Assembly: GCF_900129295.1 (NCBI RefSeq)
Contig: NZ_FQUU01000010.1
Location: 1-64,000, forward strand
Length of the DNA: 64,000 nucleotides
Origin: Flavisolibacter ginsengisoli DSM 18119
GTDB lineage: Bacteria; Bacteroidota; Bacteroidia; Chitinophagales; Chitinophagaceae
Direction of reading: 5' to 3'
This document shows, one piece after another, positions 42,067 through 48,093 of this stretch; within the stretch, counting starts at the first letter, position 1; each line of letters opens with the position of its first letter. The position numbers and the translations under genes were made by a program. The notes below the pieces were generated by a model. The model was given only the letters and a program-made list of their open reading frames with translations, was not told where the DNA came from and made no database searches.

Positions 42067-42592
42067 AGGGTCGTTTTACCTGTAAATATTAAAATAATCA
42101 TGCATTTATGCAAGTGTTCCAAGGGGTTTTTACCACAATCCTAGCTAAGAGCACCTTTAAAAGATTGGTTATCAAGGCTACTAACTTTATGGCAGCGGCA
42201 TACCAACCCCCTGTTCTAGGCATGGATACTCCGTGCAAGCACGGAGTATCCATGCCATAGCTATGGTTGAAATAGGGAGGAGTTATGTAAGTAGAATGGA
42301 GTAAAGGGTAGGTGACTCTGCCTTTTGTAAAATGCAATTATTTCGGGATGTTTCCTCATCTCTTCTAATCCAATATTTTCTCATAATCTCACATTTCACA
42401 ATATCTATGTTTCTTTTGAAAGGAAAATTGAATAAAGGATTTATTGTCATTGACCAGCATCCAAGCCAGCTATGGCATCCATTGTATTGTTTCCTGAATA
42501 ATAAAACCATTGACAAGCATCTGCCCAGACTTTTTTTAATTCATTCCTCAGATTATTAAATTGATCCTAAACAGTTAGGCTTTTAGCTGACT
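42067..42592. other. 526-base non-coding stretch with palindromes
   Basis: Between the hypothetical gene and the left boundary repeat of the ubiquitin-like cassette. It holds a perfect 38-base palindrome (listed separately) and a 12-base one at 42255-42266. Short frames here have no coding features I can support. Confidence 0.5.
42219..42256. repeat. Perfect 18-bp inverted repeat with 2-nt spacer
   Basis: Arms 42219-42236 and 42239-42256 are exact complements (GGCATGGATACTCCGTGC) with AA between. No T run follows. It would form a very stable hairpin or cruciform. A second palindrome (42255-42266, CCATAGCTATGG) overlaps its right end by two bases. Confidence 0.8.
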
Positions 42593-42687
42593 AAGGAGGC
42601 CGTTCTCTTTGGGTAAGACCAAGTATTTTGGATCATGGAATAATTTAGTTAGAATAGTTTTTTATTTGGCAGTGGTGAAAGCATACA
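42593..42687 (+). repeat. Left boundary repeat of the cassette
   Basis: This 95-base stretch is an imperfect inverted copy of 47775-47875. Shared blocks are AAGGAGGCCG, CTTTGGGTAAGACCA, TGGATCATG-AATAAT and, at the inner end, AGTGG-GAAAGCAT-CA. A core block of the same repeat is also present at 47650-47684. Confidence 0.75.
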
Positions 42688-42776
42688 CCTTCAAGATGTG
42701 GCACGCCTAGGACTGGATCCCTTACTTGCTGAGGTTCAATTTTTATTGTAAGAAGTGTGTCAAATGAAATTTACAA

Positions 42777-43502
42777 TTATTGAACTTCAATAATAATAAT
42801 ATTTTTATCTTTAATCCACTGCCATACTAATGAAACATTTTGTTGCACAAACCTTCCTTTTTCTTTGGACCAAGCATAGAATTTAGAAAAAAGCAATTCT
42901 TCAGAAAAAGGTTCACTCTTCTCCAAGATTTCAAAATAACAGGCTGCAAGGGTGGCAGCTATTTCAGTAAAATCAGTTTTCTTATCCTTAAATAAATCAA
43001 TAACGTATTGAATTGAATGAGCTGTTTGATCAAAGTATCTTTGGTAATAAGGCTTGTACTTTTCACATCCCTCCAGAGGGATATAAGTTGAACGGTATAT
43101 AGAATCTTTCTTTTCTTTTTCTACTCGAAACCATTTTTGTTTTTGAAACTCTTTTTCTATGGAATGCATGAATTTATTATCAAAGGGGCCTGCTGCAAAT
43201 TTCTCATATCGGTGCAGAGTATGGAGGTTAGCCACATGTTCACATAGATATACTAGTTTTTGAAATTTTACACGTCCAAAAGTAGGCTGTGCATGTAGGT
43301 CTGACGCAATTTTCGCGGCAAGCACGGCCCGTTTAAAATATTCAGCACTTTTCTCCGCTTTTTGTTTTTTTTGATACTCCTCCAATATCTCACGCTGTTT
43401 TAATTCTTCCACTGTACTTGGAGAAATTAAGCCTGCTAACATTAGTCCTTTCTCAAAATCTTCCATTGAGAAAGGACTACTTTCATTATTGGTAGATTTC
43501 AT
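42777..43502 (-). CDS. Panacea/DUF4065-like protein
   Basis: The 241-residue protein has, near residues 95-140, VKFQKLVYLCEHVANLHTLH then YEKFAAGPFDNKFMHSIEKEF, the pattern of the Panacea/SocA (DUF4065) fold used in antitoxins and in proteins that deliver substrates or bind toxins. The N-terminal ~75 residues are a helical, Lys/Glu-rich stretch. It overlaps the end of the sigma factor gene by 17 bases, so both are translated from one transcript. It may act as an anti-sigma or antitoxin-like partner. That role is a guess from context. Confidence 0.6.
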   Translation of the reverse strand: MKSTNNESSPFSMEDFEKGLMLAGLISPSTVEELKQREILEEYQKKQKAEKSAEYFKRAVLAAKIASDLHAQPTFGRVKFQKLVYLCEHVANLHTLHRYEKFAAGPFDNKFMHSIEKEFQKQKWFRVEKEKKDSIYRSTYIPLEGCEKYKPYYQRYFDQTAHSIQYVIDLFKDKKTDFTEIAATLAACYFEILEKSEPFSEELLFSKFYAWSKEKGRFVQQNVSLVWQWIKDKNIIIIEVQ

Positions 43503-44124
43503 TTATGGCTTTTTTAATTTTTGAAATTGCACGTTCTCTTATTTTTCGAATAGTTGCCTTTTGAACACCCAAATCCTCAGACAGTTCCTCGGTAACCTCA
43601 TCAGGTAAATAGCAGTAATGTTTTTTGTACTCCAGATCTTTCAGAACCACAGCTTGTTCTTTTTTGTTCAATTGGCTAAATATGTATTCGGCATTTTCTT
43701 TTATATTTTGAAGTTTTTCGGGATTCTGCTCAAACTGGTCCGTTTCAATAAGATCCTCAAAGTATGTCCTTCGGTGGACAGTTTGTAGATGATGATCGCG
43801 TACTTTTTTGCGGTGGTGGTCACGGAATAAGTTTGTGGCTATTTGATATAGATAGACTAGGATGGCTTTTTTGGGATCCTTAACGTCTTTTCGCTCTTTA
43901 AAGGTTCCCGATCTACGGGCATTTTCTAGGGTTTTATGCGCAATTTCCTGTCCAATGTGCAGATCCAGCTTTTTGATTTGGCACTTACGCTTACATTCCT
44001 GTTTTACATCGGGTAGGAAGCGCTTTACAAACTCAGTAAAGCACCGATCGTCACCTGGTTCGTTACACAAAGCAACAAATAAATCTACATCTGATAGCAC
44101 TTTATACGGGGCCTGATCAATCAA
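43486..44124 (-). CDS. Sigma-70 family (ECF-like) RNA polymerase sigma factor
   Basis: The 212-residue protein has a sigma region 2-like part (ILVYLYQIATNLFRDHHRKKV near residues 88-108, the pattern of 2.2-2.4 with core binding and -10 melting) and a region 4-like helix-turn-helix at the end (LSEDLGVQKATIRKIRERAI). Between them is an acidic linker. This makes it an alternative sigma factor of normal ECF length. It is transcribed away from the ubiquitin-like operon, with two inverted repeats between them, so it may control that operon and itself. A Panacea-like gene follows by overlap. Confidence 0.8.
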   Translation of the reverse strand: MIDQAPYKVLSDVDLFVALCNEPGDDRCFTEFVKRFLPDVKQECKRKCQIKKLDLHIGQEIAHKTLENARRSGTFKERKDVKDPKKAILVYLYQIATNLFRDHHRKKVRDHHLQTVHRRTYFEDLIETDQFEQNPEKLQNIKENAEYIFSQLNKKEQAVVLKDLEYKKHYCYLPDEVTEELSEDLGVQKATIRKIRERAISKIKKAINEIYQ

Positions 44125-44145: not shown

Positions 44146-44174
44146 AAGCGTGACACTTTTGGCCTGTCACGCTT
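44146..44174. promoter_or_regulatory. Perfect 10-bp inverted repeat in divergent promoter region
   Basis: Arms AAGCGTGACA (44146-44155) and TGTCACGCTT (44165-44174) surround a 9-nt loop. It lies 22 bases before the sigma factor start and 79 before the ubiquitin-like gene, so it is a candidate operator. No T run suggests a terminator in either direction. Confidence 0.6.
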
Positions 44175-44252: not shown

Positions 44253-44588
44253 ATGAATGAACATGTACACAACAATGCTCCAGATCAAGGTGTTTCTAAT
44301 TCTGGCAATGGTGGTGGTAGCGGCCATCCAAATCAAATCACGGTCAATATCCGCTATCAAAGCGAGACGGTGCAGGTGACCATCAATCAAAATGAATCCA
44401 TTAACGCCTTGCTGGAACAGGCCATTAAAGCCACTGAAAATAATAGTGTTGATAAAGACAGGCTGCAATTAAAACTCGGTGGAACTGTGCTAGACCTAAA
44501 AAATAAGGTAAGCGATTACGCCATTCAAGAAGGTGTTACCCTGGTGCTCTCTTTAACTGCCGGAGGTGGTGGAAATTATAGCTTATAA
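44253..44588 (+). CDS. Ubiquitin-like protein with C-terminal Gly tail
   Basis: The 111-residue protein has a disordered Asn/Gly-rich N-terminus (1-27) and then a beta-grasp domain at ~29-102: ITVNIRYQSETVQVTINQNE, then LLEQAIKAT, LQLKLGGTVLDL, VTLVLSLTAGGGG. The four glycines (104-107) followed by NYSL show a pro-form whose last residues must be removed to expose a terminal Gly-Gly for activation. The JAB peptidase encoded two genes on can do this. The E1 encoded fourth would adenylate it. It is a YukD-type bacterial ubiquitin homologue by pattern. Target proteins are unknown. Confidence 0.8.
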   Translation: MNEHVHNNAPDQGVSNSGNGGGSGHPNQITVNIRYQSETVQVTINQNESINALLEQAIKATENNSVDKDRLQLKLGGTVLDLKNKVSDYAIQEGVTLVLSLTAGGGGNYSL

Positions 44589-44597
44589 TAGCCGGTT

Positions 44598-45167
44598 ATG
44601 AGTGATACACAATTTGTAGATCCGGTAGTGACTCAACAAAAATTCACAGAAGAATTAGAACGGTTTCGACAGCTTAAAGAAGAATACCGTAGTAAAGGGG
44701 TACTGCTTTTAGAAGAAGCGTACCCTAATCTTTATTTTGCCTTTACTGCTCCTTCTCTGAATCCAGTACCGATTGTCTTTGCAGTCTGTATCAATTTTAT
44801 CAATTATGATGTAGAACCTCTTTCTGTACGGTTCGTGCATCCTGTTACCCTACAACACGTCCTCTTCACCCAAATGCAGACAAGGTTTTTTAGAAATATT
44901 AATGGACCGGCGCCGCAGGCATTACTTCAAGCACAGAGCGATCAAGTTCCTTTTTTTTGTATACCAGGTGTGCGCGAATACCACAAGCATACATTTCATA
45001 ACGGAGACTCCTGGTTTTTATATAGAAAAAATGGCGGGGAGGGCTCTTTATGCTTTTTATTAGATAATCTGCAGCTTTATGGAACGAGCGCTATCAACTC
45101 CTATCTATTTCAATTTAATTTTCAAATGCCGAACATTAACCTTGGCATAAATCAATACCCAACTTAA
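44598..45167 (+). CDS. CEHH metal-binding-type protein of ubiquitin-like operons
   Basis: The 189-residue protein carries C121, E127, H129 and H131 (also H134) in the string FFCIPGVREYHKHTFHNGDSW. This C-E-H-H pattern is the signature of Metal_CEHH, a predicted metal-binding domain known from Ub-like/E1/JAB neighbourhoods and suggested to be related to the E2 fold. N-terminal strings such as LLLEEAYPNLYFAFTAPSLN fit a two-layer alpha/beta fold. I do not see the usual E2 HPN-type motif plus a lone catalytic cysteine. It starts 9 bases after the Ubl stop. It could be a modified E2-like transferase, a substrate adaptor or a metal-dependent enzyme. Confidence 0.7.
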   Translation: MSDTQFVDPVVTQQKFTEELERFRQLKEEYRSKGVLLLEEAYPNLYFAFTAPSLNPVPIVFAVCINFINYDVEPLSVRFVHPVTLQHVLFTQMQTRFFRNINGPAPQALLQAQSDQVPFFCIPGVREYHKHTFHNGDSWFLYRKNGGEGSLCFLLDNLQLYGTSAINSYLFQFNFQMPNINLGINQYPT

Positions 45168-45668
45168 ATGAACAGTGAACCGATCGGCTTAATGCATATA
45201 AAGACTGTATTTATACCACAGGAGTTTGTTGATGCCATCTATAAAGAATTTCAAGTCACCGGTAGTAAAGGGTATGAACGACTGGCATTACTTGCTGGCA
45301 GCAAGAAGGGAAAAGAATTTATTGTAACCAATCTTATTTATCCGGCCCAAGAGCTTCACAGGAGTAGATTTGGTGTTTCTTTTTATGTATCTGGAGCGGA
45401 GCTAGGGCGTCTTTGGGACTGGCTCTATGGAAACAAACGCATCCTGATAGCGCAGGTACATTCTCATCCTACAGAAGCTTATCACTCAAAAGCTGATGAT
45501 GATATGGCTATTATTACCACTTTTGGTGGCCTATCATTAGTCGTACCTGATTTTGGAAATAGTGATCAGAGCTTTGAAGGGAGTGCCATTTTCCGTCTCC
45601 AACCGGAAAGTGGATGGACTGAATTGACGAAAGAGCAGATCAATCATTTACTTAAAATTACCCAGTAA
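45168..45668 (+). CDS. JAB/MPN-domain (JAMM) isopeptidase
   Basis: The 166-residue protein is a single JAB domain. The JAMM site reads H98-S-H100-P then S107 and D110, with a six-residue spacer before the serine rather than the textbook seven. The upstream glutamate is E37 in GYERLALLAG. Zinc-dependent JAB enzymes cleave after the C-terminal Gly of ubiquitin-like proteins, here most likely maturing the AGGGG-NYSL precursor or removing it from targets. The ATG directly follows the CEHH stop, and its own stop overlaps the E1 start, so the genes are translated together. Confidence 0.85.
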   Translation: MNSEPIGLMHIKTVFIPQEFVDAIYKEFQVTGSKGYERLALLAGSKKGKEFIVTNLIYPAQELHRSRFGVSFYVSGAELGRLWDWLYGNKRILIAQVHSHPTEAYHSKADDDMAIITTFGGLSLVVPDFGNSDQSFEGSAIFRLQPESGWTELTKEQINHLLKITQ

Positions 45669-47200
45669 TGGCCCTAGCCAATTTCTTTGATAAAATAAGC
45701 CTTGGAGCTGCCCAGCGTATTAAAAATTACGATCGCAGTTCCTTTGAAAATAAGTTACTAGCTACCCGCCTAGCAATTGTTTATAGCGACAATGCGGTAC
45801 AGACTAATGAAGGAAAGTTTGCGCTCGATCTGGCGGTACGCATTTTAGCCCGTCTTTATCCAAATATTCAGTTTGTTGACCATTCATCAGACGGGTATGG
45901 CAGTACTATTACAAAAGAGCTCAAAGCCACATCCTTTCGCATCAATCCGGTTCTTAACGTAAATGAAGTCGAAGCGCCTGATATTACCCTCGTAATTGGC
46001 TCTGTTGATGACCGGCAAGTTGGAGGACAATGTTTTTTTACAGGGTCTTCTGGTTGGAAAGCCACCTTTTCAACTCAATCATCAATGAATTGTGCCGATA
46101 CCCAAAACCCCTTTGGCGCAGCAGCTTCGGTTTGTATAGCAGCCGCTAATATCTTTCGCTTCCTTTTTGCTGAGGAGCTTGGTCACCCCTCCTTGGATAG
46201 GGAGGTCTGCTTTTCAGTGTTTTCCCAACAAATCAATGCAATAAATAAAGAGGAGCCCGCGCTGCCCGCTGATATAACCTTAGGTTTTACCTTGGTAGGC
46301 ACAGGTGCTATTGGTAACTCAATTCTGTGGTGCTTGCTTCAGTTACCAACACTCAAAGGCTTTCTCAATCTAATCGATGACCAAGAAGTAAGCCTTACTA
46401 ATTTACAGCGCTATGCATTAATGGAACAAGAACATGTACGCAAAAGCAAAGTAGTGGAGCTTGAAAAAATGTTTACTCGTTTTCCGAATCTTACTGTTAA
46501 TCCTTTTTTAAATAAATGGCAGGAAATAATTGCTACTCTGCGACCAAATGACTTAGAGCTTATGGCAGTAGCTCTGGATTCTAAAGAGCAACGCCTGTTA
46601 ATTCAAAGTACGCTGCCTAAAAAAATTATTAATGCCTGGACTTCTCAGCAGGACATTGGTGTATCCCGTCATTTCAACTTTGCTGAAAATGTTTGTCTTG
46701 CCTGTTTATATATTCCTAAACAAAAGCAAAAAAGTGAGTCTGTAAAAATCGCTGAATCCCTTAAACTTCCCGAAGAATTAGTCCGAAACTATATTGCCAA
46801 TTCTATTATGGTAGATGAAGGGTTTATTTTCATGGTAGCCAAAAGTCTAAGCATTCCTGTAGATCAATTGCGTTCTTTAATTGGTAAACCTGTGCAGGTG
46901 TTTTACTCTGAAGGTATTTGTGGGGAACGGATCATAAGATCTAGTAGTGCCAGTGGCCATCAGGATCTAGAGGTGCCACTGGCCCATGAGTCGTTTTTGG
47001 CTGGTATATTAGCTGCCGCAGAAATCATTATAGAATCGGCGCAATTGCGTTTAAATAAAATTGAGCCGTTAACGAAAATAAACCTGCTTATGCCATTACA
47101 TAATTTCTTAAAAGAAGATGAAGAAAAAAATTTACAAGCTCGTTGTATTTGCACCGAACCAATTTTTGTTAAACGTTTTAAGACAAAATGGAGTTTATAA
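45668..47200 (+). CDS. E1-like ThiF-family ubiquitin-activating enzyme
   Basis: The 510-residue protein has an N-terminal ~200-residue domain of unknown fold, then a ThiF/E1 adenylation domain: FTLVGTGAIGNSILWCLLQL with the nucleotide loop at 211-216, LIDDQEVSLTNLQRYALM with the acidic and Arg residues that bind ATP, and a later Lys/Arg helix. Cysteines at 343/346 (CLAC) and 493/495 (CIC) likely hold a structural zinc. C418 in EGICGERI is a candidate catalytic cysteine. It shares one base with the JAB stop (TAATG). It would adenylate the Ubl tail and may transfer it through a thioester. No separate E2 follows. Confidence 0.8.
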   Translation: MALANFFDKISLGAAQRIKNYDRSSFENKLLATRLAIVYSDNAVQTNEGKFALDLAVRILARLYPNIQFVDHSSDGYGSTITKELKATSFRINPVLNVNEVEAPDITLVIGSVDDRQVGGQCFFTGSSGWKATFSTQSSMNCADTQNPFGAAASVCIAAANIFRFLFAEELGHPSLDREVCFSVFSQQINAINKEEPALPADITLGFTLVGTGAIGNSILWCLLQLPTLKGFLNLIDDQEVSLTNLQRYALMEQEHVRKSKVVELEKMFTRFPNLTVNPFLNKWQEIIATLRPNDLELMAVALDSKEQRLLIQSTLPKKIINAWTSQQDIGVSRHFNFAENVCLACLYIPKQKQKSESVKIAESLKLPEELVRNYIANSIMVDEGFIFMVAKSLSIPVDQLRSLIGKPVQVFYSEGICGERIIRSSSASGHQDLEVPLAHESFLAGILAAAEIIIESAQLRLNKIEPLTKINLLMPLHNFLKEDEEKNLQARCICTEPIFVKRFKTKWSL

Positions 47201-47649
47201 AAATTTATACGTTTTAAGTAACAATAGTATTAAAACATTTAAAACTTTTAAAGTGCCGAAACATAATTATCAAGCAAGATTAGAAAAACTACGTTCTAGA
47301 AGAATAGATATCGTTCTAAATAAAGCTTTCTTAGCCGAATCATTTAATCGTTCTATTCTTCCTAGACTGTCCGCTATGTATTCGAAGCCATGAATGCGAT
47401 CTTATCTTTTGGGACCTGAAATTATCCGTTTAAGTGTTGAAGTAGATAGGGGAAGATTAGTCTATCGAGAAAAAGGTAAAGATAGAAGTATGTCTTATAA
47501 GAGAGTAAAGAAATGGCTAATTTGAACTTCACACATGATAGACCACAAGTTCCAGGTTGGTTGTTTTAAATTTAATTAGTTGTCCCCTAAAAAAGATAAA
47601 ACTATAGTCAAGCAATCGCCCAGGTACTTTTTTAATTCAAGCCTCAGAA
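47201..47649. other. 449-base stretch after the E1 gene, possible gene debris
   Basis: Between the E1 stop and the first right repeat copy. A small frame at 47394-47525 encodes 43 residues with GRLVYREKGKDRSMSYKRVK, which look protein-like, and an AT-rich frame overlaps the E1 end at 47118-47393. I cannot support either as a real gene. The stretch may be decayed coding DNA. Confidence 0.35.
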
Positions 47650-47684
47650 ATATTTCATGATCCAAAATAGTTGGTCTTACCCAA
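47650..47684 (-). repeat. Extra partial copy of the boundary repeat
   Basis: The 35 bases match the core of the boundary repeat (ATTTCATGATCC, then TGGTCTTACCCAA) in the same orientation as 47775-47875. Its right flank differs from the other copies and is GC-rich. Confidence 0.7.
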
Positions 47685-47774
47685 GGCCTTCGCGCCACTT
47701 CGTTTCGCTGGGCTTTTCTGTTTGTCCGTAGTTTGAAAGCATGCAGCAAATTATTTCAAGCTCAATTTTGTCAA

Positions 47775-47875
47775 TGCATGCTTTCTCCACTCCCAAACAT
47801 AAAAGCCCTCTCTTTTTATTGGATTATTTCATGATCCAGGAATATGTGGTCTTACCCAAAGACCTCGGCCTCCTT
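47775..47875 (-). repeat. Right boundary repeat of the cassette
   Basis: The reverse complement of this 101-base stretch aligns along its whole length with 42593-42687, with long exact blocks at both ends and in the middle. It lies about 100 bases before the tRNA-Leu gene end. An 11-bp inverted repeat, GAAAGCATGCA at 47735-47745 and TGCATGCTTTC at 47775-47785, joins it to the neighbouring sequence. Confidence 0.75.
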
Positions 47876-47930
47876 CGTCGGCCTCGGGGCTTTTTATTTG
47901 TTCCTGCCTGCGGACAAGCCCGCGCCAGTC

Positions 47931-47968
47931 CCAAATAAAAAGCCCCATCTCACTGCGTGAGACGGGGT
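47931..47968 (-). terminator. Terminator of the tRNA-Leu gene
   Basis: On the minus strand an 11-bp stem (CCCCGTCTCAC with GTGAGATGGGG, one G-T pair) around GCA is followed by CTTTTTATTT. It begins six bases after the tRNA end. Confidence 0.85.
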
Positions 47969-47973
47969 CTTTG

Positions 47974-48055
47974 TGCCCGGGACTGGATTCGAACCAGCAC
48001 ACCTCGCGGCGCCGCCACCTGAAGACGGTGCGTCTACCAATTTCGCCACCCGGGC
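47974..48055 (-). tRNA. tRNA-Leu (CAG anticodon)
   Basis: The 82-base minus-strand sequence folds with acceptor GCCCGGG/CCCGGGC plus discriminator A, a D arm containing TTGGTAGACGC, an anticodon loop TTCAGGT giving CAG, a long variable arm typical of class II leucine tRNAs, and a T arm with GGTTCGAATCC. CCA is not encoded and must be added by the CCA enzyme. It is an obvious place for integration of mobile DNA and borders the ubiquitin-like cassette. Confidence 0.95.
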
Positions 48056-48093
48056 AGGGGAGTGCAAATATAGCTTTCCTGCCTAATCCAACA

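Follow-up and report, generated by a model that had tools for sequence, protein, structure and literature searches.

A four-gene operon of Flavisolibacter ginsengisoli DSM 18119 very probably encodes a BilABCD-type ubiquitin-like conjugation system in a Bacteroidota-type genome, with the protein of the Pfam family named "Metal_CEHH" as its E2. The operon lies in the window that we analyzed, the first 64,000 nucleotides of contig NZ_FQUU01000010.1, and encodes a ubiquitin-like protein (Ubl), the CEHH protein, a JAMM peptidase of the JAB family and an E1 (Table 1). All four open reading frames (ORFs) are intact and on the plus strand, with junctions of 9, 0 and minus 1 bases, and their coordinates agree with the four-gene operon at 44253-47200 described in an initial annotation of the sequence. 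Pfam matches on all four proteins bear out the gene set that it named. The order of the genes is beyond chance: in 62 of the 62 related loci that we fetched by the second gene, all four genes were present in the same order (Ubl, E2, JAB, E1) on one strand.

Table 1. Coordinates of the operon and of neighboring features in the window.
Feature	Position	Strand	Remarks
Ubl (BilA-like), 111 aa	44253..44588	+	DUF2604 and BilA match; single beta-grasp domain
E2 (BilB-like, Pfam "Metal_CEHH"), 189 aa	44598..45167	+	BilB match
JAMM peptidase (BilC-like deubiquitinase, DUB), 166 aa	45168..45668	+	BilC match
E1 (BilD-like), 510 aa	45668..47200	+	BilD match
Extracytoplasmic function (ECF)-sigma-like gene	43486..44124	-	Divergent neighbor; TIGR02937 6.4e-9, 35.6 bits versus cut-off of 42.9
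DarG-like protein	42777-43502	-	Similar to the C-terminal region of DarG and of type I restriction subunits
Perfect 10-bp inverted repeat, 9-nt spacer (AAGCGTGACA / TGTCACGCTT)	44146..44174		Between sigma-like gene and operon
tRNA-Leu (CAG)	47973..48055	-	3' end faces cassette; possible insertion landmark, outside system

All four proteins match chains of one solved bacterial ubiquitination pathway. We searched the sequences of solved structures and found matches to PDB entries 8tyx, 8tyy, 8tyz and 8tz0, the BilABCD pathway, presumably that of Ensifer aridi (Chambers et al. 2024). The best match was a Bil chain for the E2, the E1 and the JAB peptidase, and not for the Ubl. The two systems are alike in all four components by sequence and in the E1 and E2 by predicted fold; they have the catalytic residues in common, and both have a short Ubl. 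They differ in that identity in the structure matches is 32-40%, that the host here is Bacteroidota-type and that the Ubl of the window has four residues past its terminal Gly. Because all four proteins match a single solved pathway, we take the apparently missing E2 to be the CEHH protein. The proposal that the operon specifies a Ubl-conjugation pathway is supported by this homology to BilA, BilB, BilC and BilD, and on sequence grounds a function in conjugation is very likely.

The CEHH protein is homologous to the E2 BilB. Its residues 2-175 matched BilB chain 8tyz_C (E = 6.1e-34), and a search with the hidden Markov model of Metal_CEHH, which the initial annotation had called for, gave a match at 8.9e-38. 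The conserved CEHH motif of BilB, as set out in passages of a 2024 review (PMC11354881), consists of Cys138, Glu144, His146 and His151, of which Cys138 and His151 are catalytic and Glu144 and His146 are structural hydrogen-bonders. In the alignment to 8tyz_C, C121, E127, H129 and H134 of the window protein pair with these four residues at equal spacing. Cys121 is the predicted catalytic Cys, together with Glu127, His129 and His134, and all four were present in 64 of 64 aligned rows (the 62 loci, the window and a relative, genome G029). CEHH being the conserved motif of an E2, the operon reads as Ubl-E2-DUB-E1, that is, BilABCD.

The predicted structure led to the same protein family. We modeled the E2 from a 31-row alignment (mean predicted local distance difference test score [pLDDT], 83.2; predicted template modeling score [pTM], 0.82). 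The best PDB match was 8tz0_C (E = 1.2e-14; template modeling [TM] score of 0.71 by query and 0.91 by target), and at E up to 0.001 there were only three matches, all of them BilB chains. Eukaryotic E2s had only insignificant scores (UbcH7, E = 0.12), so the identity of the E2 rests on BilB. The refutation test that the initial annotation had set, whether the 189-residue protein lacks an E2-like or metal fold, thus ended on three solved BilB chains, and the earlier statement that the operon has no recognisable E2 does not hold, since the second protein is itself homologous to a solved E2. The role that had been given to this protein survived in part: the transfer job stands, by homology, and the idea of a metal-binding stand-in in an E2-less system falls, because CEHH is the motif of BilB.

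The E1 resembles BilD over its entire length. Residues 1-508 matched chain 8tyz_A (7e-84), and Pfam placed ThiF on the protein at 3e-9. BilD is described in PMC11354881, in the passages on this enzyme, as having one inactive and one active adenylation domain and as using Cys417. In the alignment to 8tyz_A, C418 pairs with that residue and is the predicted catalytic Cys of the E1; it was kept in all 63 rows that reach the position, the E1 of locus L061 being cut by a contig end. A structure model (30 rows; pLDDT, 87.5; pTM, 0.86) superposed on BilD chain 8tz0_A (9.4e-48; TM, 0.91/0.92) and, with lower TM scores of 0.79/0.81, on 8tyz_A (3.6e-49). Below three BilD chains, the matches listed were eukaryotic E1s for ISG15, NEDD8, ubiquitin or FAT10. 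An N-terminal inactive adenylation domain followed by a C-terminal ThiF-type adenylation domain fits BilD.

The Ubl and the peptidase have the features expected of BilA and BilC. The Ubl is one beta-grasp domain preceded by a Gly/Ser-rich N-terminal arm, with Pfam matches to DUF2604 (2.8e-32) and ubiquitin (4.4e-6). It matched BilA chain 8tyz_B at 6.1e-8; three chains of ubiquitin repeats scored above BilA because their many weak repeats sum. Gly107 was present in 64 of 64 aligned rows and is the predicted mature end of the protein; in the window it is followed by NYSL. Two Ubl domains, as in ISG15, are reported for BilA in passages of PMC11354881, in contrast to the 111-residue Ubl of the window with its one DUF2604 domain. 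The solved BilA chains are just 98-100 residues long, and two Ubl domains are therefore not required in that subtype. The JAB protein matched BilC, which processes BilA (PMC11354881, passages on BilC), at 2.1e-28 (8tyx_B). Its match to Prok-JAB in Pfam (2.5e-5, 24.6 bits) fell narrowly below the 25-bit cut-off and was the sole Prok-JAB match in the genome. E37, H98, H100, S107 and D110, which we take to be the JAMM residues, were present in 64 of 64 aligned rows, and D111 in 61 of 64. The PADLOC models gave matches to BilC (1e-15, JAB), BilD (4.7e-15, E1) and BilA (6.9e-5, Ubl).

The relatives of the operon are found chiefly in rhizobia. Genomes were scanned with a five-sequence E2 alignment and a pattern that required E127 and H129, which gave 69 pattern matches and, from these, 62 loci; an earlier scan of genome contigs with a single E2 query had given no matches. 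The loci were chiefly from Mesorhizobium and other rhizobia, with five from Actinomycetota, two from Acidobacteria, one from Myxococcales and a few others. No Bacteroidota organism was named among the 62, and the window's own genome may lie outside the scan. Matches on plasmids came only from rhizobia, in 18 records for the E1 (in 13 of them, 80% or more of the protein was covered) and in 12 for the E2. In the R. etli copy of the operon, TIR and caspase-family genes adjoin it.

Such Bil systems seem rare in Bacteroidota. Metal_CEHH was found in 2 of 98 relatives (the window's genome and G029) and in 1 of 395 sampled genomes of the phylum, the window's own; with an E-value limit of 1e-15, the E1 was found in 2 of 148 relatives. 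The host genome had 57 matches to the type-IX sorting tail, 55 of them above the cut-off, compared with 2 of 14 control genomes with a match and one above the cut-off. We take these matches as a marker of a Bacteroidota-type host. No paper tying "bacterial ISG15" to Bacteroidota was found, which says little given the narrow literature coverage. Carriage by phages was considered and dropped: there was no match to the E1 in 50,697 phage records, and none to the E1 or E2 alignment in viral contigs.

In a tree of the E1s (65 rows, L061 left out), the window was a lone long branch beside 61 other rows on the BilD side. The tree program warned of long branches and of odd composition for the window, and its exact placement is therefore unsure. 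G029 and loci L112 and L113 were on the opposite side of a branch with 100/100 support, with E1s of the PF14463 type. These three form a second class of CEHH operon. They have the CEHH motif, the JAB residues and the four-gene order in common with the operon described here and differ in an E1 N-terminus that matches PF14463 (E1-N) and a Ubl that has no match to DUF2604. The G029 operon is at 3066-5751 of L006; its Ubl starts with a long N-terminal arm that is charged and coiled-coil-like and ends in GGGGYE, and its E2 weakly matches PADLOC BilB (0.0057).

By analogy with the solved pathway, the peptidase would trim NYSL off the Ubl and expose Gly107. The E1 would then adenylate Gly107 in its C-terminal ThiF-type domain and load the Ubl on Cys418, from which it would move to Cys121 of the CEHH protein, the E2, and onto target proteins; the peptidase may also take the Ubl off again. 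In Collimonas, an ISG15-like system is reported to attach its Ubl to the central tail fiber of a phage, giving defective particles (PMC11364771, in part), and by that analogy the most likely purpose here would be to tag a phage structural protein such that the progeny virions are defective. A function in phage defense is likely on this comparison.

The same chemistry could instead serve a housekeeping or stress role, which we regard as unlikely. Rhizobial plasmid copies and two loci on chromosome records are on the side of such a role. Against it are the sporadic occurrence among relatives and across the phylum given above and a site downstream of a transfer RNA (tRNA) gene where relatives have varied DNA. 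In addition, action against phages is reported for known systems of the same kind (PMC11364771), and passages of a review (PMC12687455) state that they appear to work mainly against phages.

The presence of an E2 was obscured by names. The operon is of the type described for plasmid pNGR234a, the prototype of row 6c in Iyer et al. 2006 (PMC1779556, in part), where the row is given as "Multidomain E2 + E1 protein, JAB, and predicted metal binding protein". Identity to the NGR234 homologues was 37% for the E2, 36% for JAB, 35% for the E1 and 29% for the Ubl. In that scheme the E2 is put in the N-terminus of the E1, and another protein is the predicted metal-binding one; the system would be an E1-E2 fusion with the CEHH protein as an accessory. 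Prok-E2_C ("E2 ligase fold family C") does match residues 40-168 of the window E1 at 1e-17 (and the NGR234 E1 at 1.9e-77), but the entire E1 superposes on BilD. The N-terminal part is therefore a BilD-type adenylation-like domain and not an E2. Residues 35-166 are predicted as alternating strands and helices, which we read as unlike an E2; according to the passages of PMC11354881 cited above, BilD has its inactive adenylation domain at the N-terminus, and the operon has a separate E2 homologue. An E2 fold at the N-terminus of the E1 thus failed the structural test, and we consider the fusion highly improbable.

An E2-less pathway, with a metal-binding CEHH protein as transfer factor or adaptor, is barely credible: the Pfam name of the family is still "Predicted metal binding domain", and the annotation "putative metal-binding protein" stands in 10 of the 12 plasmid records that the E2 matched, but the protein matches a solved E2 by homology and by fold, and its CEHH residues fall on the catalytic Cys and His and the structural Glu and His of BilB (PMC11354881, passages on the motif).

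The names PF14455 and PF14459 are misleading: "Metal_CEHH" matches the E2 BilB, and "Prok-E2_C" sits on the N-terminal adenylation-type part of BilD-type E1s. Of the plasmid E1 matches, 11 of 18 carry the annotation "E2 ligase fold family C protein". With the E2 labeled as metal-binding and the E1 as E2-fold, such operons appear to lack an E2, and the absence seemed surprising because the family name predates the structure. The labels can be traced to the description of row 6c by Iyer et al. 2006 (PMC1779556).

Several observations weigh against assigning the operon to BilABCD with a role like that of the characterized systems. Identity per protein to the 63 other aligned rows was just 16-41%. 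The E2 model is weak near residues 131-150 (pLDDT of about 70) and over much of 161-189, with the worst part at 171-180. Part of the conservation of E127 and H129 in the 62 loci follows from the scan pattern, which demanded both residues; therefore, C121 and H134 are the only independent residues of the motif at these loci. The PADLOC Bil models, presumably built on Collimonas-like systems, have the set of Ubl, E2, JAB and E1 in common with the window, and yet the BilB model had no match here (up to E = 1) or in NGR234 (up to E = 0.1). Both E2s thus lie outside the range of that model, which seems to miss this subtype. The four-residue tail after Gly is unusual: in the Ubl ORFs of the 62 relatives, the last Gly was followed by 0 residues in 14, by 1 in 45, by 2 in two and by 3 in one, and the 14 that end on Gly indicate that trimming is not required in all. 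Finally, a 2026 review gives the mechanism of ISG15-like systems as unknown (PMC12926258, in part). Based on the combined evidence, we conclude that the operon is a new, divergent BilABCD family member, of a kind already explained, and that its host is unusual.

The location of the operon is consistent with, but not proof of, acquisition at a tRNA hotspot. We fetched 11 loci, including two short ones of 3.5 and 6.8 kb, from the 15 other genomes of the genus with dapD. Nine of the 11 have tRNA-Leu (CAG) close to dapD, and none of these 11 dapD loci contains Bil genes. Eight stretches past the tRNA were compared; two pairs have common genes, and the remainder do not. An ORF past the tRNA in genome G010 resembles, in our reading, a serine recombinase. 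In G015, the TonB-type protein of the other flank was 75% identical, and that flank was separated from dapD by about 2.4 Mb. We found no att-like repeat; the tRNA-Leu stretch 47961-48070 had no second copy in the window.

The sigma-like and DarG-like genes are not a general part of the system. The two genes overlap. There was no match to either at E up to 1e-4 around the 62 Bil loci (flanks of up to about 6 kb per side, some cut by contig ends), ruling out the pair as a general component. The sigma-like protein was found in 2 of 146 genomes of the family and the DarG-like protein in 6 of 146, the window's included in both. Four of the five other family-level matches to the DarG-like protein sit within ORFs of 634-715 residues. 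When PADLOC was run on the two nearest upstream genes, the DarG-like protein matched MTase_I at 6.1e-29.

The inverted repeat between the sigma-like gene and the operon is a possible operator. It forms a hairpin (stretch z-score of -2.31), and its 8-bp core arms were found at one place in the genome only (spacer of 5-15, no mismatch). Five Bil operons are reported to have CapK/CapS regulators upstream (PMC13373217, in part), compared with the ECF-sigma-like gene as divergent neighbor here. A regulatory link of that gene or the palindrome to the operon is speculation. It is quite doubtful, a long shot, that the operon represents a deep, separate Bacteroidota branch of BilB-CEHH systems induced by infection or stress via the sigma-like gene and the palindrome; if true, the Bil system here would be under sigma control and would have targets of its own.

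The Bil genes, together with the sigma-like and DarG-like genes, are flanked by diverged, mainly inverted repeats some 40-100 bp long (42586-42687, 47648-47725 and 47775-47882), which we considered as possible ends of a mobile element. The inverted pairs are 42586-42687 with 47775-47882 (76%) and 42609-42645 with 47648-47684 (92%). The stretch 42560-42700 matched just two other places in the genome (E up to 0.01), both of them the right-hand repeats, and in our reading the bracketing repeats look terminator-like. At 42219-42256 lies a perfect inverted repeat of 18 bp, spaced by 2 nt, that resembles a terminator or an operator.

These results correct misleading labels in Pfam and in plasmid annotations. 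They also add to this type of Bil system a deep branch from a Bacteroidota-type host, which helps in asking how such pathways spread.

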